Position numbers and translations under genes: made by a program
Shown: positions 6,701 to 60,403 of the stretch, piece by piece
Layout of the letters: each line of letters opens with the position of its first letter
Position numbering within the stretch: the first letter of the stretch is position 1
NCBI GenBank assembly: GCA_002842035.1
Contig: PHBP01000005.1
Coordinates: 62,001 to 126,000 of the forward strand
Length of the DNA: 64,000 bases
Reading direction: 5' to 3'
Source: Candidatus Cloacimonetes bacterium HGW-Cloacimonetes-2
Lineage (GTDB): Bacteria > Cloacimonadota > Cloacimonadia > Cloacimonadales > Cloacimonadaceae
Notes under the pieces: model-generated
What the model was told of the DNA's origin: nothing
The model's input: only the letters and a program-made list of their open reading frames with translations
Database searches by the model: none

Positions 6701-7949
6701 GGATCCGGGTAACCTAGCCACAGCAGAACTGATTGGCTCCGGCACCCCGGAGGATCCTTACCTGATTATGAGCAGCGATCAGCTAAATATCATCAGGCAA
6801 AATCTCTCTGCGCATTACCGGATTCATACCGATTTGGATCTTTCTGCTACGCTGATCTGGAATGGCGGTAGAGGTTGGCTGCCCTTGGGAAGCCCTGCTG
6901 AGCCCTTTACCGGCTCTATCGATGGCGATGGCAAGATCATCCACGGGCTTAGCATTATGGCACCGCTGAGCTCCAATATCGGCTTTATCGGGCTCGCTCA
7001 AAATGCCACAATCAGCGATCTGAAGCTTACGGGCGTCAGCATTGTTGCAGAAGACTACTCTGGTGCTTTGGCAGGAGTCCTGAATTACTGCACCACCATT
7101 GGAGCAGAGGTAGATGTAGAGCATACGGGAGCAGGATTTGTGGGAGGTTTGGTTGGTTTAATGACCGGCGGAACCCTCGAATCCAGCTCTGCCAAGGCAA
7201 GTCTATTGGCTCGTAACTACCATATTGGTGGACTCTTGGGCTATATGCAGGACAATGCCCAGGTCTCTCTGTGCTCTACAACGGGCTCTGTAAAAGGATA
7301 TACCCTGGTAGGCGGCATTGTAGGAGATTTGAATCACGGAACTGTCTCCGACAGCTATAGCCACGCAGCTGTGCAAGCCACCCAGCTCTTGGGCGGAATC
7401 GCCGGAAGACTGGGCTGGGGAAATGCCGGGCATATCCTGAATTGCTATGCCACCGGCGCTATCACGATCAATCCGGGTGGATACGATGCAGGTGGAGTGG
7501 CAGGCCAGCTCTATTACGGCTCAATTTCGGGATCCTATTGGGATATCAACACAACCGGGATCAGCACCAGCCCGGGAGGAACAGGCGCGACAGGTCTTAC
7601 GACCCAGCAGATGACCTGGCCTGCCTCGCAAAGCTATTTCTCTGGCTGGGATTTCACGAATACCTGGCGTCACGATAATATCGGACAAAATAGCGGCTAT
7701 CCTTACCTCGCCTGGCAGGGACTTCCCATTCCGGACGCTGTGCAAAATCTACAGATTGTCTCTGTGGGCGATCAATTGATCTTGCAATGGTCGGCAGTGG
7801 ATGATGTAAATCTCTATAGGATATACTCTTCTGAAGATCCATATCTGCCTTTTGCCGAGTGGAACTATCTGGGGCAAAGCTCCGGTACCAGCTACCAGAT
7901 CAATCTCGCAGACAAGGCTTTCTACATCGTAAAGAGCGTAATAGAATAA
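3762..7949 (+). CDS. Giant GLUG-repeat surface adhesin
   Basis: This secreted protein of about 1395 residues has a signal peptide (MKALFCILALALCFSLFAV). The body is four modules of about 339 residues. Modules 2-4 open with GSGTExDPY..(A/S)DQLN(V/I)IR near 4695, 5712 and 6730, followed by W.PIG....PFTG.L.G.G and strings of GLUG-type motifs (AGLFGY, GGLAG, NVGGLVG). Each module closes with a YWD(S/T)QSSG motif. Such repeats form beta-solenoid adhesins. The last 75 residues look like a fibronectin type III domain (LILQWSAVDDVNLYRIY). Unlike its neighbours it ends without a type IX sorting domain. ATG 3762 is chosen over GTG 3756 because AAAGGAA sits 6 bp before it and overlaps the GTG. It appears monocistronic. 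Confidence 0.88.
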   Translation: MKALFCILALALCFSLFAVIPEAPAVGNGSPDNPFRIANFPNLYWLTQTPGVWNQHFIQTANIDAADSDEISDPAPNTSGWIPIGCTSPYFTGTYDGQGYQIHNLYMHRPSQNYAGLFGYMIGARISRINLRNLSITGAQYTGGLAGVANSNSVVNSCSVTGAVNGTVNVGGILGYCDNSGATNSYSHASVYCSSDQVGGFVGLSGWNNPSYYNFCYSTGTVTAPGTSYKNGFMGRSGSNTARDCYWDTQSSGIATDPVATGKNTAQMKSQYTFFRWNFHHQWSIQEGVAYPNLDNLLYYALPAVLTTDDLMGSGTETDPYVILSADQLNVIRQAPDAHFILWANIDLEASVGWNQGTGWEPIGNPSTPFTGTLSGNGFTISGLTICRPRDDNQGLFGYTLGATIGDFDLINCHILGKSNIGGAVGYAKSSSLDEIQFDGTMLAFSASGGIAGVLDNATLQRSYAQIDLKSFSDYAGGLAGYITSTGTIGGSLSNSGSSGNIEGVYNVGGAVGMISWGYILNSYSHCLVNGTYNIGGLVGTLGWSNPGYISRCFSTGLVSLNAGGNSNGGLLGRFMAGAIRESYWDSQSSGLSSNSGSGAVPKTTAEMQQESTFARWNFGTIWQIETGEYPTHQDLSLYGLPQALEIGQLLGSGTESDPYLIVNADQLNIIREAPGAHYALAEDLDLSATCVWNGGRAWEPIGTSSAPFTGSLNGAGHLLANLSIERPDTDYSGLFGYVSGGKITSIIFSGVNLLARNYLGSVAGYAVDSRIDMIEADGYITGNDYVGGIAGTMHRGTIQRSTVDMTLWAQGYYSGLIAGSVSSDASFISTISTCESRGAVRGVDNVGGLVGFLSYGSVINSSSHAAVSGHNYLGGAVGTCGWSEQGAIVRSYSTGTVVSEISGFGVFGFVGRMQSGQVYDCYWDSQSSGLTLGGHSYLTGLSTMAMKQSASYQNWNFDSLWDITEGAEYPYLRDLSAYQDPGNLATAELIGSGTPEDPYLIMSSDQLNIIRQNLSAHYRIHTDLDLSATLIWNGGRGWLPLGSPAEPFTGSIDGDGKIIHGLSIMAPLSSNIGFIGLAQNATISDLKLTGVSIVAEDYSGALAGVLNYCTTIGAEVDVEHTGAGFVGGLVGLMTGGTLESSSAKASLLARNYHIGGLLGYMQDNAQVSLCSTTGSVKGYTLVGGIVGDLNHGTVSDSYSHAAVQATQLLGGIAGRLGWGNAGHILNCYATGAITINPGGYDAGGVAGQLYYGSISGSYWDINTTGISTSPGGTGATGLTTQQMTWPASQSYFSGWDFTNTWRHDNIGQNSGYPYLAWQGLPIPDAVQNLQIVSVGDQLILQWSAVDDVNLYRIYSSEDPYLPFAEWNYLGQSSGTSYQINLADKAFYIVKSVIE

Positions 7950-7975
7950 ACTTACAGGTAAACTTATATGTCGAT

Positions 7976-8010
7976 GGCCGGTTTCTTTTATGGAATCCGG
8001 CCTTTCTTTA
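7976..8010 (+). terminator. Rho-independent terminator after the adhesin gene
   Basis: GGCCGG (7976-7981) and CCGGCC (7997-8002) form a stem around a T-rich loop, followed by TTTCTTTA. It lies 27 bp after the adhesin stop codon. Confidence 0.8.
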
Positions 8011-8077
8011 TAATCTTAATTTGCAAGTCTTTAGAGCTTCTCGCAGAGGCTGCGGTTTGGTGACAGTGCTTTCCTCC

Positions 8078-8176
8078 TGCTTGAATCCTCTGGAGATCCC
8101 CTAGTGATCCCCTAGTGATCCCCTTGTGGTGACAAGGGAATCACCAGTGCAGTGCCAGAGTTTTGCCAGTGGTTTC
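8078..8176. repeat. 11-bp phased array, locus A (nine units)
   Basis: Nine consecutive 11-bp units fill 99 bp without a phase break. The first four end in ATCC (TGCTTGAATCC, TCTGGAGATCC, then CCTAGTGATCC twice). The fifth and sixth form the dyad (CCTTGTGGTGA, CAAGGGAATCA), and the last three begin CCAG. Units left of the centre pair with units on the right, so a transcript would form a long imperfect hairpin. An A/G-rich tract (AAAAGGAAGGA) follows. It is homologous unit by unit to loci B and E. Confidence 0.85.
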
Positions 8177-8274
8177 AAAAGGAAGGATTAACAAGGAGTA
8201 AAGGAGAAAGGAGGGGTTTTCTTTGCCACGAGAAAGCGGAGAACAGCGCTACTCGTAGTGGGGAAGTGATGGAG

Positions 8275-8330
8275 TGTGGGAGCGACATCCTGTCGCTCTG
8301 AAAACTGTGCGTCAGGATGACGCATCCACA
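8275..8330. repeat. Three-way-junction repeat, copy 1
   Basis: An outer stem TGTGG/CCACA (8275-8279 with 8326-8330) encloses two hairpins: GAGCGACA-TCC-TGTCGCTC (8280-8298) and TGCGTCA-GGA-TGACGCA (8308-8324). Other copies lie at 38614-38671 and, inverted, at 48694-48748. A further hairpin shared with 49131-49204 (GCGAGGACGCAGTCCG) follows at 8420-8435. The remainder of the 7950-8514 gap holds no gene. TATTGACA at 8457-8464 is a possible -35 box for the next operon. Confidence 0.75.
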
Positions 8331-8514
8331 AGATGGCAGCACGAACTACTAACCACCTGAATCAAACCGCAGGGACACATTCCGCGCCGTGCACAGCTTC
8401 ATTTGTTAGCTCATTCACTGCGAGGACGCAGTCCGGGCACAGCTCCCCCTTTTTCCTATTGACAATAAACTGCCATAAAATAGCTTCGTCACAAAATATC
8501 AAAAGGGAGAAGCT

Positions 8515-15892: not shown

Positions 15893-16416
15893 GAGAGCTA
15901 ATCCTTCTGTTCACTGGTTTCTGTTCACTGTTCACGGCGCTTTGCGCCTGGCTCGAAGAGCAGATCTCACCACCTCTTGTTACTCGTCATTGCTCTTAGC
16001 GCTTTCTCCCTGCTTGAATCCACTGGAGATCCCCTAGTGATCCCCTAGTGGCGACAAGGGGATCTCCAGATCAGTGCCGATGAATTACCATAGATTTCAA
16101 AGGGGAAGAGAATGACAATGATTATATGAGGAAGGAGGTCTTCCACCTCAGAGCCCAGTACAGAGTTTCAGGGACAGAGAGCCTGATATTAAACTAAAGA
16201 AAGCCCTGTAATCCGGCTTCCAGTGGAAAGACTCCGCCGGGACGGGGCTAGAAAGTCCTTGACAGAATCAGCCCGGGCGAGAGCTTGGATTCATACATTG
16301 ATGGCAAATAACAATCCAACTGATCTTCCCCACAGGAAGCTTTGGCTCAAATACCCTTACCATACTATTGGTAAACCCATATTACACAATGTAATAAATC
16401 ACTGGGAGCAGTACTT
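15893..16416. other. Intergenic region: degenerate repeats, array B, promoter-like box
   Basis: No convincing gene is present. Degenerate GTTCACT-type repeats (15908-15935) lead into a GGCGC-TTT-GCGCC hairpin and CTGGCTCGAAGAGC (15935-15963), the same combination as near 3400. The 11-bp array B follows at 16011-16098, then a purine tract. TCCTTGACA at about 16256 resembles a -35 box. A small palindrome ATTACA-CAA-TGTAAT occurs near 16382. A 65-codon frame at 16223-16420 has no ribosome binding site and no recognisable product. Confidence 0.5.
16011..16098. repeat. 11-bp phased array, locus B (eight units)
   Basis: Eight units in strict 11-bp phase: TGCTTGAATCC, ACTGGAGATCC, CCTAGTGATCC, CCTAGTGGCGA, CAAGGGGATCT, CCAGATCAGTG, CCGATGAATTA, CCATAGATTTC, then AAAGGGGAAGA. 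It aligns with loci A and E but has one unit fewer left of the dyad, that is, a clean 11-bp contraction. GGAGATCCCCT pairs with the AGGGGATCTCC across the centre. Confidence 0.85.
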
Positions 16417-32529: not shown

Positions 32530-32729
32530 TGTTTTTCCTCTCTTTTTGTCGTTGTATTTCTGCCCAAATGGCAGTTATCTCTCAAGTTATGAGCAAAAAC
32601 GGGAAGGGGCTATGTATGTCAAGCAAGAACTTTCTGAAGTAGTGAATGGACTCTATGGACGGTATTGCCAGAGTGGATGGGAGATCGCTTCCGGTTACCG
32701 ATAGCATTTTGCTTAGCCGGAGCAGTTCA

Positions 32730-32817
32730 CCAGCAGATCAAGCCGAAATCACCTCGAACCGCGTTCGACTTGATTTGCTTTTGATTTGCTCTTGATCTGC
32801 TTTAGACCTCCCGGATG
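32730..32817. repeat. 11-bp phased array, locus D (eight units)
   Basis: Units: CCAGCAGATCA, AGCCGAAATCA, CCTCGAACCGC, GTTCGACTTGA, TTTGCTTTTGA, TTTGCTCTTGA, TCTGCTTTAGA, CCTCCCGGATG, then AAAGGGGAAAA. The centre TCGAAC-CGC-GTTCGA is a perfect hairpin, and CAGATCAAG pairs with CTTGATCTG at the base. The unit sequence differs from loci A, B and E although period and layout are the same. Confidence 0.85.
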
Positions 32818-38328: not shown

Positions 38329-38426
38329 GGGGACGAGTAACGAGTGACGAGAAGGCGGGAATCCACTAAAACAACTGCGCGTAGCGCATTCCGTATTATT
38401 GTAGTCACTAACAATCTAATGCGCTC

Positions 38427-38525
38427 TGCTTGAATTCTTATGTGATCCTCTAGTGATCCCCTAGTGATTCCCTTGTGGCGACAAGGGGATCTCCAGAGCA
38501 GTGGCAGAGTTTTACCAGTGGTTTC
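38427..38525. repeat. 11-bp phased array, locus E (nine units)
   Basis: Nine units in 99 bp: TGCTTGAATTC, TTATGTGATCC, TCTAGTGATCC, CCTAGTGATTC, CCTTGTGGCGA, CAAGGGGATCT, CCAGAGCAGTG, GCAGAGTTTTA, CCAGTGGTTTC, then AAAAGGGAAGG. It corresponds unit for unit to locus A, with substitutions scattered through the units but no phase change. The similarity with locus A continues downstream to about 38671. Confidence 0.88.
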
Positions 38526-38613
38526 AAAAGGGAAGGATTTAACAAGGAGTAAAGGAGGGGTGGGTTATCACAGAGAAAGCGCTGGGCGCTACGCGTAGTG
38601 GGGAAGTGATGGA

Positions 38614-38671
38614 GTGTGGGAGCGACATCCTGTTGCTCGGATAAACTGTGCGTCAGGATGACGCACCCACA
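38614..38671. repeat. Three-way-junction repeat, copy 2
   Basis: Outer stem TGTGGG/CCCACA (38615-38620 with 38666-38671) encloses GAGCGACA-TCC-TGTTGCTC (one G-T pair) and TGCGTCA-GGA-TGACGCA. The CCCACA arm restores a pair that is mismatched in the 8275 copy. It is preceded by the same GCGTAGTGGGGAAGTGATGG stretch as copy 1, with one base difference. Confidence 0.75.
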
Positions 38672-38689
38672 TTTATTGCTCCGAATGAA

Positions 38690-38699
38690 GGGGGGGGGG
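38690..38699 (+). repeat. Ten-G homopolymer tract
   Basis: A run of ten G lies about 240 bp upstream of the 38938 gene. Such tracts are prone to slippage in replication or to length errors in assembly. The following 38700-38937 stretch has no gene that I can support. Confidence 0.6.
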
Positions 38700-38937
38700 C
38701 GTTACGCAAGCCGATGTAGCCGGGTACTACGCGCCGGGCTTTCGTTTTCACTCAAACAAATGCCGGTTAAACTGGTTGGTCGGAGCTGGATAGCACAGGC
38801 ATTTATTTAAGTCAAAACAGCTACTGACACAACGCAATCATCATCTTCTGAAAATAAAAATGATTTGGAACAATCTTTGCACTCAGGTATTCTCACTTGG
38901 AAGATATGAATGTGGGAATATGGCCAAGGAGGAACTA

Positions 38938-48515: not shown

Positions 48516-48693
48516 CATAATCCTTTATCTGGCAAGAAGTAAGGAGATTTTCTTACCACAGAGAAGGCAGAGAAAAGCGCAGATCAGCAGAGCGCTTCGC
48601 ACTGTGTTGGAATGTTGAAGTGTTGGAGTGGGGATTTGCACGTATTCGTACATCCACCCAGACTCCAAGTGACCTTCATTTATTTGCCTTCAT

Positions 48694-48748
48694 GTGGGTG
48701 CGTCATCTTGACGCACAGCCTAACTGAGCGACAGGATGTCACTCCCAC
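48694..48748. repeat. Three-way-junction repeat, copy 3 (inverted)
   Basis: Outer GTGGG/CCCAC encloses TGCGTCA-TCT-TGACGCA and GAGCGACA-GGA-TGTCACTC. The hairpin order is reversed compared with copies 1 and 2, as expected for an inverted insertion. A half copy, the GAGCGACA hairpin with the same CCTAACT lead-in, lies at 48797-48829. Confidence 0.75.
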
Positions 48749-48893
48749 TCAGGTACCGCGTCAGGCTGATACGAGATTACTAGCGATTCCAGCTTTGCCT
48801 AACTGAGCGACAGGATGTCGCTCCCACTCAGGTCGATTCTACAAACTATTCGCAGCACCGCACTCCACCACTCCCCCCAGTGCTGAGCGCATT

Positions 48894-49126
48894 CCTGAGT
48901 CCCGGAGGGACATCATTCCATAGCCTGGGGTGAAGCGTAGCGGAACCCCAGGTACGCAAAACCTATGCTTCAACACCCTACCGGACCCCCACCCCCTGCC
49001 ACAATGAAACTATCGTTTCATTGTGGCAGGGGGTGGGGGTAATACGGGAAAACTCACAAGAGATGTGCATTACCCTGGGGTTTCGCTACGCTTCACCCCA
49101 GGCTATAGAATTTCGCCCTTCCAGGG
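48894..49126. repeat. Nested palindrome with 26-bp perfect central stem
   Basis: A perfect 26-bp inverted repeat (48985-49010 with 49015-49040) has a 4-nt TATC loop; its arms are ACCCCCACCCCCTGCC-like followed by an ACAATGAAAC tip. Outside it, a copy of CCTGGGGTGAAGCGTAGCGG (48921-48954) faces an inverted near-identical copy (49071-49105), each itself a hairpin (CCTGGGG/CCCCAGG). Further out, TCCCGGAGGGA (48899-48910) faces GCCCTTCCAGGGC (49114-49126). The whole is a dyad of about 230 bp. Confidence 0.8.
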
Positions 49127-49130
49127 CTTT

Positions 49131-49204: not shown

Positions 49205-49354
49205 GGCAGTTAGATTTTAGTGTTGCGCTCGGCTCGCAGATCGTTTCTACAAACTATGCGCAGCACCCCACTCCACCACAGTGCGAAGCGCATTCCGAAT
49301 ATCCTTGTTCACTTTTCAATTCCCTGTGTCCTACACATCAGACTTCCCGATATC

Positions 49355-49497
49355 ACCAGCAGATCAAGAGCAATTCACCTCGAACCACGTTCGACTTGAT
49401 TTGCTCTTGATTTGCTCTTGATCTGCTTTAGACCTCCCATAGGATTGCTGGATGCTCCCTGCTTGTATCCTGCTTGAATCCTGCATAGTGATGCATC
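49355..49497. repeat. 11-bp phased array, locus F (thirteen units, two types joined)
   Basis: The first eight units match locus D (CCAGCAGATCA, AGAGCAATTCA, CCTCGAACCAC, GTTCGACTTGA, TTTGCTCTTGA twice, TCTGCTTTAGA, CCTCCCATAGG). The remainder matches locus C (TGCTTGTATCC and TGCTTGAATCC, 11 bp apart, then TGCATAGTGATGCATCA). The stem CAGATCAAGAGCAA pairs with TTGCTCTTGATCTG. The right arm has one more unit than the left. Confidence 0.82.
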
Positions 49498-59958: not shown

Positions 59959-60403
59959 CTGCGGGGTCATAGCCTCCTGTTTTCCCTTGCTTCCCTATTA
60001 GCTGCTGCCGCGCTCTAGCCGCGATGCTGCCGCGCTCCTGCCGCGATCATGCCGCGAACGCGGCAGGAGCACGGCAGGAGAGTGGCAGGATGATGGCATA
60101 AGTCAAAGGGAGGTTAACAGATGGCTACGGAGCGATCCAACCAGCGTATCCTCGGAACACCATTGTCTCCACCAATTCTCTTACAAAGAAAAAGCAAGTC
60201 CAGGTGAAACTGCTTTGAAAAGTAGATAAATCAGATATTTTTCTTGACTGCCTTGGATATTGATAAAACCTGATCACAATTAGCTCTGGTTGTGTTGGTA
60301 ATTGAGCTATCTTTATGTAGGAGTTTGTGATAATAGAGAGGACAGATAGCTCCGATGAGTCGTCGGCATAACCGGATGCTGAATACTGATTGGGGAGGAA
60401 AAT
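59959..60403. other. Intergenic region with array G and upstream signals of the C25-like gene
   Basis: Array G occupies 60003-60101. TCTTGACT at 60242-60249 is a possible -35 box. TAGCTC and GAGCTA (about 60283-60311) can form a hairpin followed by TCTTT. GGGGAGGAAAAT directly precedes the GTG start at 60404. No additional gene is seen. Confidence 0.5.
60003..60101. repeat. 11-bp phased array, locus G (nine GC-rich units)
   Basis: Nine units in 99 bp: TGCTGCCGCGC, TCTAGCCGCGA, TGCTGCCGCGC, TCCTGCCGCGA, TCATGCCGCGA, then the reverse-complement type ACGCGGCAGGA, GCACGGCAGGA, GAGTGGCAGGA, TGATGGCATAA. The centre GCCGCG-AA-CGCGGC is perfect and the arms pair over about 40 bp with few mismatches. 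GTCAAAGGGAGG follows. The sequence is unrelated to arrays A-F, but period, length, dyad and purine tail agree. Confidence 0.88.

Follow-up and report, generated by a model that had tools for sequence, protein, structure and literature searches.

MITEs and BOX-type modular repeats are short, non-coding, multicopy bacterial sequences with imperfect terminal inverted repeats (TIRs) and a variable number of units. Bacterial interspersed mosaic elements (BIMEs) lie in intergenic DNA and are composites of palindromes and linkers with alternating REPs. REPINs are intergenic, dispersed hairpins made of inverted REP doublets, and each genome harbours one RAYT gene, with the same REPs on its flanks (Bertels and Rainey 2011, PMC3116915; for GTAG-tagged REPs, PMC3733652). 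REPs are also known targets of insertion sequences (ISs), which insert specifically beside these dispersed palindromic repeats (Tobes and Pareja 2006, PMC1525189). Lastly, the TIRYT/TIRtron systems are dispersed TIR families with Y1 transposases (PMC3733652).

The composite repeat analysed here shares traits with all these systems and differs from each of them. Like BIMEs, it is intergenic and joins palindromes to linkers, but it mixes different kinds of modules, namely an 11-bp fold-back (A), a REPIN (R) and a TIR element (T). Its R module resembles described REPINs in architecture and dispersal, and as in those systems the genome has one RAYT gene flanked by the same REPs, with RAYT retained in a congener whose REPs have diverged. 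By contrast, the tag of R is GTGG or GTAG, many R copies are embedded in a larger ordered stack behind A, and the RAYT protein scores below the NCBIfam cut-off. Module A has the imperfect TIRs, high copy number and variable unit number of MITEs and BOX-type repeats as these are generally described, but it differs in its 11-bp unit architecture and in that neither target-site duplications nor a parent transposon were found. As with REPs, ISs are found specifically beside a dispersed palindromic repeat, although here the target is a class of 11-bp fold-backs whose unit sequences differ among genera. Dispersed TIR families and Y1 transposases are present as in TIRYT/TIRtron systems, but in the related genera no 11-bp fold-backs directly bracket the Y1 genes. 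Altogether, the composite behaves as an ordered stack of different miniature DNA elements, not as a conserved RNA.

The window, i.e. the whole 64,000-nucleotide stretch under analysis, corresponds to positions 62001-126000 of contig C14 in a genome of 2.5 Mb and 14 contigs (G000). The initial annotation had described in it a composite repeat of about 250 bp shared by two loci. Their likeness is real, as BLAST and pairwise alignment of 38426-38671 with 8077-8330 gave 85.2% identity over 257 columns (E 7e-76), with identical module order and indels of 1-4 bases, chiefly in the middle of the repeat. Both loci contain the 11-bp array, the purine tract, GAGAAAGCG, GTAGTGGGGAAGTGATGGAG and the double hairpin. 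The extent originally assigned was slightly short, since the true left end is at 38422 and, in the 38-kb copy, a truncated T module continues to 38819. The features of the window are the following.

38422-38538, plus strand: module A, a 117-bp imperfect palindrome with an 11-bp array at 38442-38477 (covariance hit G000:C14:100422-100538, 138 bits; alignment; TRF period 11)
38539-38558, plus strand: purine-rich tail TTAACAAGGAGTAAAGGAGG, directly 3' of A in most high-scoring copies and missing from the most diverged A
38566-38613, plus strand: middle module M (ATCACAGAGAAAGCG...GTAGTGGGGAAGTGATGGAG), variable and with internal deletions in several copies (nhmmer module map)
38614-38672, plus strand: module R, a REPIN of two inverted GTGG-tagged REP hairpins (model R1, C14:100614-100672, 82.6 bits; covariation; same architecture beside the only RAYT gene)
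38706-38819, plus strand: truncated T, consisting of the spacer and the T2 half, with T1 lost (long-composite alignment, module map)
8073-8189, plus strand: module A of the second composite (model match C14:70073-70189, 136 bits)
8190-8273, plus strand: tail and M of the second composite (pairwise alignment, module map)
8274-8331, plus strand: REPIN (R) of the second composite (model match C14:70274-70331, 78 bits)
16006-16111, plus strand: solo A of 106 bp, with one 11-bp unit fewer and no R or M after it (model match C14:78006-78111, 102 bits)
48692-48750, minus strand: REPIN without module A (model match C14:110692-110750; pattern matches, 0 expected)
48781-48829, minus strand: partial REPIN with one REP arm intact (model match C14:110781-110829, 29.7 bits; exact arm match)
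32716-32810, no strand assigned: fold-back of another 11-bp family, TTGATTTGCTC type (lag-11 scan, TRF)
49352-49435, no strand assigned: fold-back of the TTGATTTGCTC type (lag-11 scan; DNA hairpin z -7.0)
59985-60102, no strand assigned: fold-back of a third 11-bp family, TGCTGCCGCGC type (TRF; lag-11 scan; DNA hairpin z -3.7)

The full composite has the order A, purine tail, linker M, R and T. In the window it spans 38422-38819 with T truncated, and 8073-8331 without T. An M-type linker (ACCACAGAG...GCGCTTCGCACTGTG) is also found without module A at 48548-48640. Two inverted matches to Acido-Lenti-1 RNA, approximately 120 bp apart (48898-48952 and 49074-49128), share a repeat-rich gap with REPINs and a fold-back.

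We searched the genome with the composite itself and with covariance models built for A (5' part, 117 positions) and R (3' part, 59 positions), merging the strands. The DNA query yielded at least 47 matches (best 40 of 104 candidates), and the models revealed at least ~77 sites for A and at least ~51 for R, in each case among the best 150 candidates. At least 23 A copies have an R within 400 bp, vs ~1.3 expected, so that the joint occurrence of the two halves extends well past the two window loci. R is located downstream of A in 23/23 composites, with a spacing of 32-112 nt. Among the sites listed, ~54 A copies lack R and ~28 R copies lack A. The left border of the composite is sharp, being constant at A (CTYCCTGCTTGAAT...) and directly preceded by unrelated T-rich DNA. 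No common end exists on the right, where the border varies and coincides with module ends, at 117 bp (A only), ~170 bp, 245-270 bp (end of R) or ~370-560 bp (end of T). Only 3 of 41 A copies fall within a crude ORF, despite a coding fraction of ~0.90, and the upstream gene is on the same strand as A in 22 cases and on the opposite strand in 19. Mean identity to the A consensus is 0.80 for A copies without R vs 0.88 in A+R+T composites, and the most diverged A copies are devoid of tail, M and R. We found no match to the composite in plasmids or phages. A sequence search of solved structures also gave no match.

Module R (TGTGGGAGCGACATCCTGTCGCTC...GTGCGTCAGGATGACGCACCCACA) is a REPIN matched to the sole REP-type transposase of the genome. 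It comprises two inverted REP-like hairpins, both tagged with GTGG/GTAG and built on the core CATCCTG, the pair lying within the about 60-110 bp expected of a REPIN, and the tag at the outer ends is GTGG or GTAG in 25 aligned copies. In the REP stems, 98.1% of cells are paired, with 23 two-sided changes vs a mean of 4.9 in shuffled alignments (0/500 shuffles reaching that number), and pairing drops to 18-52% when the stems are slid. The dispersal of R refers to the sites counted above, and intergenic placement was measured on the A copies.

The 2.5-Mb genome has a single Y1_Tnp gene. Its product (locus L031) matches the Y1_Tnp (IS200-like) Pfam family at 1.1e-11, above the cut-off, and carries the HUH-type motif NHVH. 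The best NCBIfam model for this protein is REP_Tyr_transpos (REP-associated tyrosine transposase, 5e-12), whose cut-off of 80 is reached neither by it (45.9 bits) nor by its orthologue in the congener G001 (64.3 bits). Four R-type REPINs flank the gene, on both sides, which is the standard RAYT-REPIN arrangement (PMC3116915, PMC3733652). In G001, nearly all matches to the R model are on contig C103, most of them at 7114-8157, and they stand on either side of the Y1_Tnp gene (C103:7636-7875); tandem REPIN arrays there (L196 2600-3680) comprise three units before and four after the RAYT gene. The two RAYT proteins share 55% identity, and in both species the gene sits between DNA-methylase-like ORFs. 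No RAYT relatives were found among viral contigs. The G000 RAYT ORF (L031 1432-2118; G000:C2 ~456376-457062) terminates, at its 3' end, inside a REPIN, and its product is missing a C-terminal stretch that the G001 orthologue has; its activity may thus be impaired or lost. An adjacent methylase-like ORF likewise ends in neighbouring REPINs, which are read in frame.

The dyad of module A is imperfect: one arm carries three tandem GTGATCCCCTA units, and the opposite arm has diverged. In the best palindromic register 72% of cells are paired, and the registers that come next are offset by 11 bp in either direction. The module is 117 bp long in 72 of the 77 copies listed, and the others include lengths of 106 and 128 bp, corresponding to the loss or gain of one unit. 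It has sharp ends with TIRs (arms CTYCC/GGRAG and TTGAA/TTCAA). No compensatory changes were detected in the dyad, where pairing at variable positions is no better than chance, and the fold of one A by itself is weak (DNA hairpin z -1.1), so that selection on base pairing is unsupported. A target-site duplication was not found either, with no excess of flanking direct repeats at any tested offset. Our searches for a parent transposon found no long element bearing the ends of A, and the exact end sequence is almost confined to A copies. Genes flanking A were located in two congeners, where the upstream neighbours are not conserved (no synteny), and neither an empty site nor a mobiliser of A came to light. 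Module A has probably spread on its own, in a MITE-like fashion. Several copies (G000:C14:46984, 53803, 28237 and related ones) share haplotype blocks that have been shuffled between them, which points to gene conversion or recombination between the dispersed repeats. As for their distribution, 57 of the 77 copies listed are on contigs C1, C4, C11 and C14, and one is on the 532-kb contig C2 (from the contrasted set C2, C3, C7-C10), hinting at a regional chromosomal bias.

Module A belongs to a wider class of 11-bp fold-backs as one of its families; at least three other genera of this bacterial family have members of the class, with different 11-mers. A scan of 700 kb of G000 for tandem similarity at each lag from 4 to 39 identified lag 11 at 49 places (46 of them intergenic), and every other lag at 0-4 places. 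A accounts for 35 of these; the remainder fall into at least four families with other 11-mers and the same fold-back plan. G006 (190 kb) has nine places with lag 11, four with lag 22 and none with other lags, and G009 (382 kb) has eight with lag 11 and at most one with any other lag. Single cases were found in G018 and G011, and none in samples of G001, G005, G027 and G029. Several arrays of this wider class fold, as DNA, into almost perfect hairpins (z -11 to -16.5). The A model has 73 weaker matches in G009 and zero in two congeners, pointing to a fast turnover of unit sequences. Y1 transposases were considered as candidate mobilisers of these fold-backs. In G006, G009 and G010, 11-bp arrays are located ~0.2-2 kb from many Y1_Tnp genes, above the expectation from background density, mostly with unrelated ORFs in between and without bracketing pairs (L211-L230). 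Nothing matching 11-bp fold-back repeats was found in the open-access literature (subscription papers being outside the scope of the search), and the class is apparently not described before.

Fold-backs of this class are also found next to ISs. We identified 14 copies of the end of one IS3-type element, TGTCAACTTATTTAGGACGAC, in G006, G009, G011 and G016. An 11-bp array is present within 150 bp of 13 of them (lag-11 score of at least 16 of 24, a value attained by 1.7% of random G006 and G009 segments), and 11 of the 14 have a long hairpin within the same distance. The ends adjoining fold-backs (L197, L199-L210) come from three genera. The G011 element is intact and encodes OrfA and OrfB, and its sequence shows a GTA duplication in the flanks. 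This association suggests that 11-bp fold-backs act as landing sites, which would account for other modules sitting beside A. A tentative generalization, which we put forward with some reserve, is that the family carries undescribed fold-backs of ~100-130 bp with a strict 11-bp unit, whose sequence turns over by genus on a constant plan, and that these serve as preferred landing pads where IS3-type elements, and probably REPINs and T, insert and build composites.

The junctions between modules bear on how the stack was formed. The purine tail AACAAGGAGTAAAGGAG comes between A and M, and the A-tail junction is identical in at least 20 copies. T consists of two hairpin halves (T1 and T2) separated by 39 bp, with outer ends TTTTGACTTA...TAAGTCAAAACA, and the T1-39 bp-T2 arrangement also occurs solo at a few sites of the module map. 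Five copies share an R-TG-T junction, and in three to four copies R is connected to T by the same 27-bp linker. Such sharing of junctions speaks for the copying of stacks that were already assembled. Mantel tests showed a correlation between T1 and T2 distances (r 0.45, p 0.001) but none between A and R distance matrices (r -0.03, p 0.57; 20 composites, in which even adjacent parts of A correlate weakly with each other). The module phylogenies therefore do not demonstrate spread as one block, and the decay of correlation within A itself makes recombination among copies, or low test power, likely. The initial idea of a non-autonomous mobile unit is partly right. What repeats is a stack of three or more miniature elements (A, the REPIN and T) whose junctions are identical and whose left end is sharp, but it has no common right end, and each module also occurs solo.

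The block from A to T might be a single MITE-like transposon bounded by the left end of A and the right end of T, the shorter forms being truncated derivatives. Its constant left end, module order, shared junctions and right ends nested at module borders would all fit, but A stands by itself at ~54 sites, the most diverged copies among them, R at ~28 and T at a few, target-site duplications are lacking, the A and R phylogenies are uncorrelated and R possesses its own dedicated transposase gene, making this distinctly unlikely. If, on the contrary, each composite had been assembled independently, with REPINs and T inserting many times at A as a strongly preferred landing site, uncorrelated module phylogenies would be natural, and so would the adjacency of 13/14 IS3-type ends to 11-bp fold-backs in related genera. 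However, identical junctions and linkers would demand repeated insertion at the same base, and the fixed orientation (23/23) also speaks against this scenario, which we regard as rather unlikely.

The alternative reading offered by the initial annotation, a conserved RNA, is very unlikely, whether taken as a structured leader, an sRNA or a 3' UTR element. The 261-nt stretch does fold stably as RNA (z -3.8) and the REP stems do covary, but such a low fold energy is to be expected of two palindromic DNA elements, REP elements match both strands with nearly equal scores and the modules occur separately. We rejected a conserved RNA given that there is no Rfam match, no bias in gene orientation and no covariation in A, whose dyad positions vary without compensation. 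As for chance or low-complexity similarity, the E value between the two loci within the window and the expectation of 0.00 REP patterns in shuffles leave it a negligible probability.

We favour copying plus recombination over pure block spread or repeated accretion, and consider it likely that the composite is a one-order mosaic of non-autonomous miniatures, namely the fold-back A, the tail with M, the REPIN R and the TIR element T. R would be dispersed in trans by the single RAYT of the genome, presumably via single-stranded hairpin intermediates, by analogy with other REPINs. A, as a 117-bp dyad of 11-bp units, would spread by itself, probably like a MITE, and T may likewise have transposed. 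As the left end of A is constant and later modules are found only on its right, we infer that its right flank receives the other modules, possibly as a landing site. Stacks assembled in this manner would then have been copied to other sites and recombined.

This genome displays separate miniature elements turning into ordered composites, and it supplies a RAYT-REPIN pair from a poorly sampled lineage. Should the class of 11-bp fold-backs be upheld, it would be a dispersed bacterial repeat of a new kind, whose helical-turn period is unusually strict, and it would offer a natural system in which to understand why insertion sequences are drawn to hairpin repeats.
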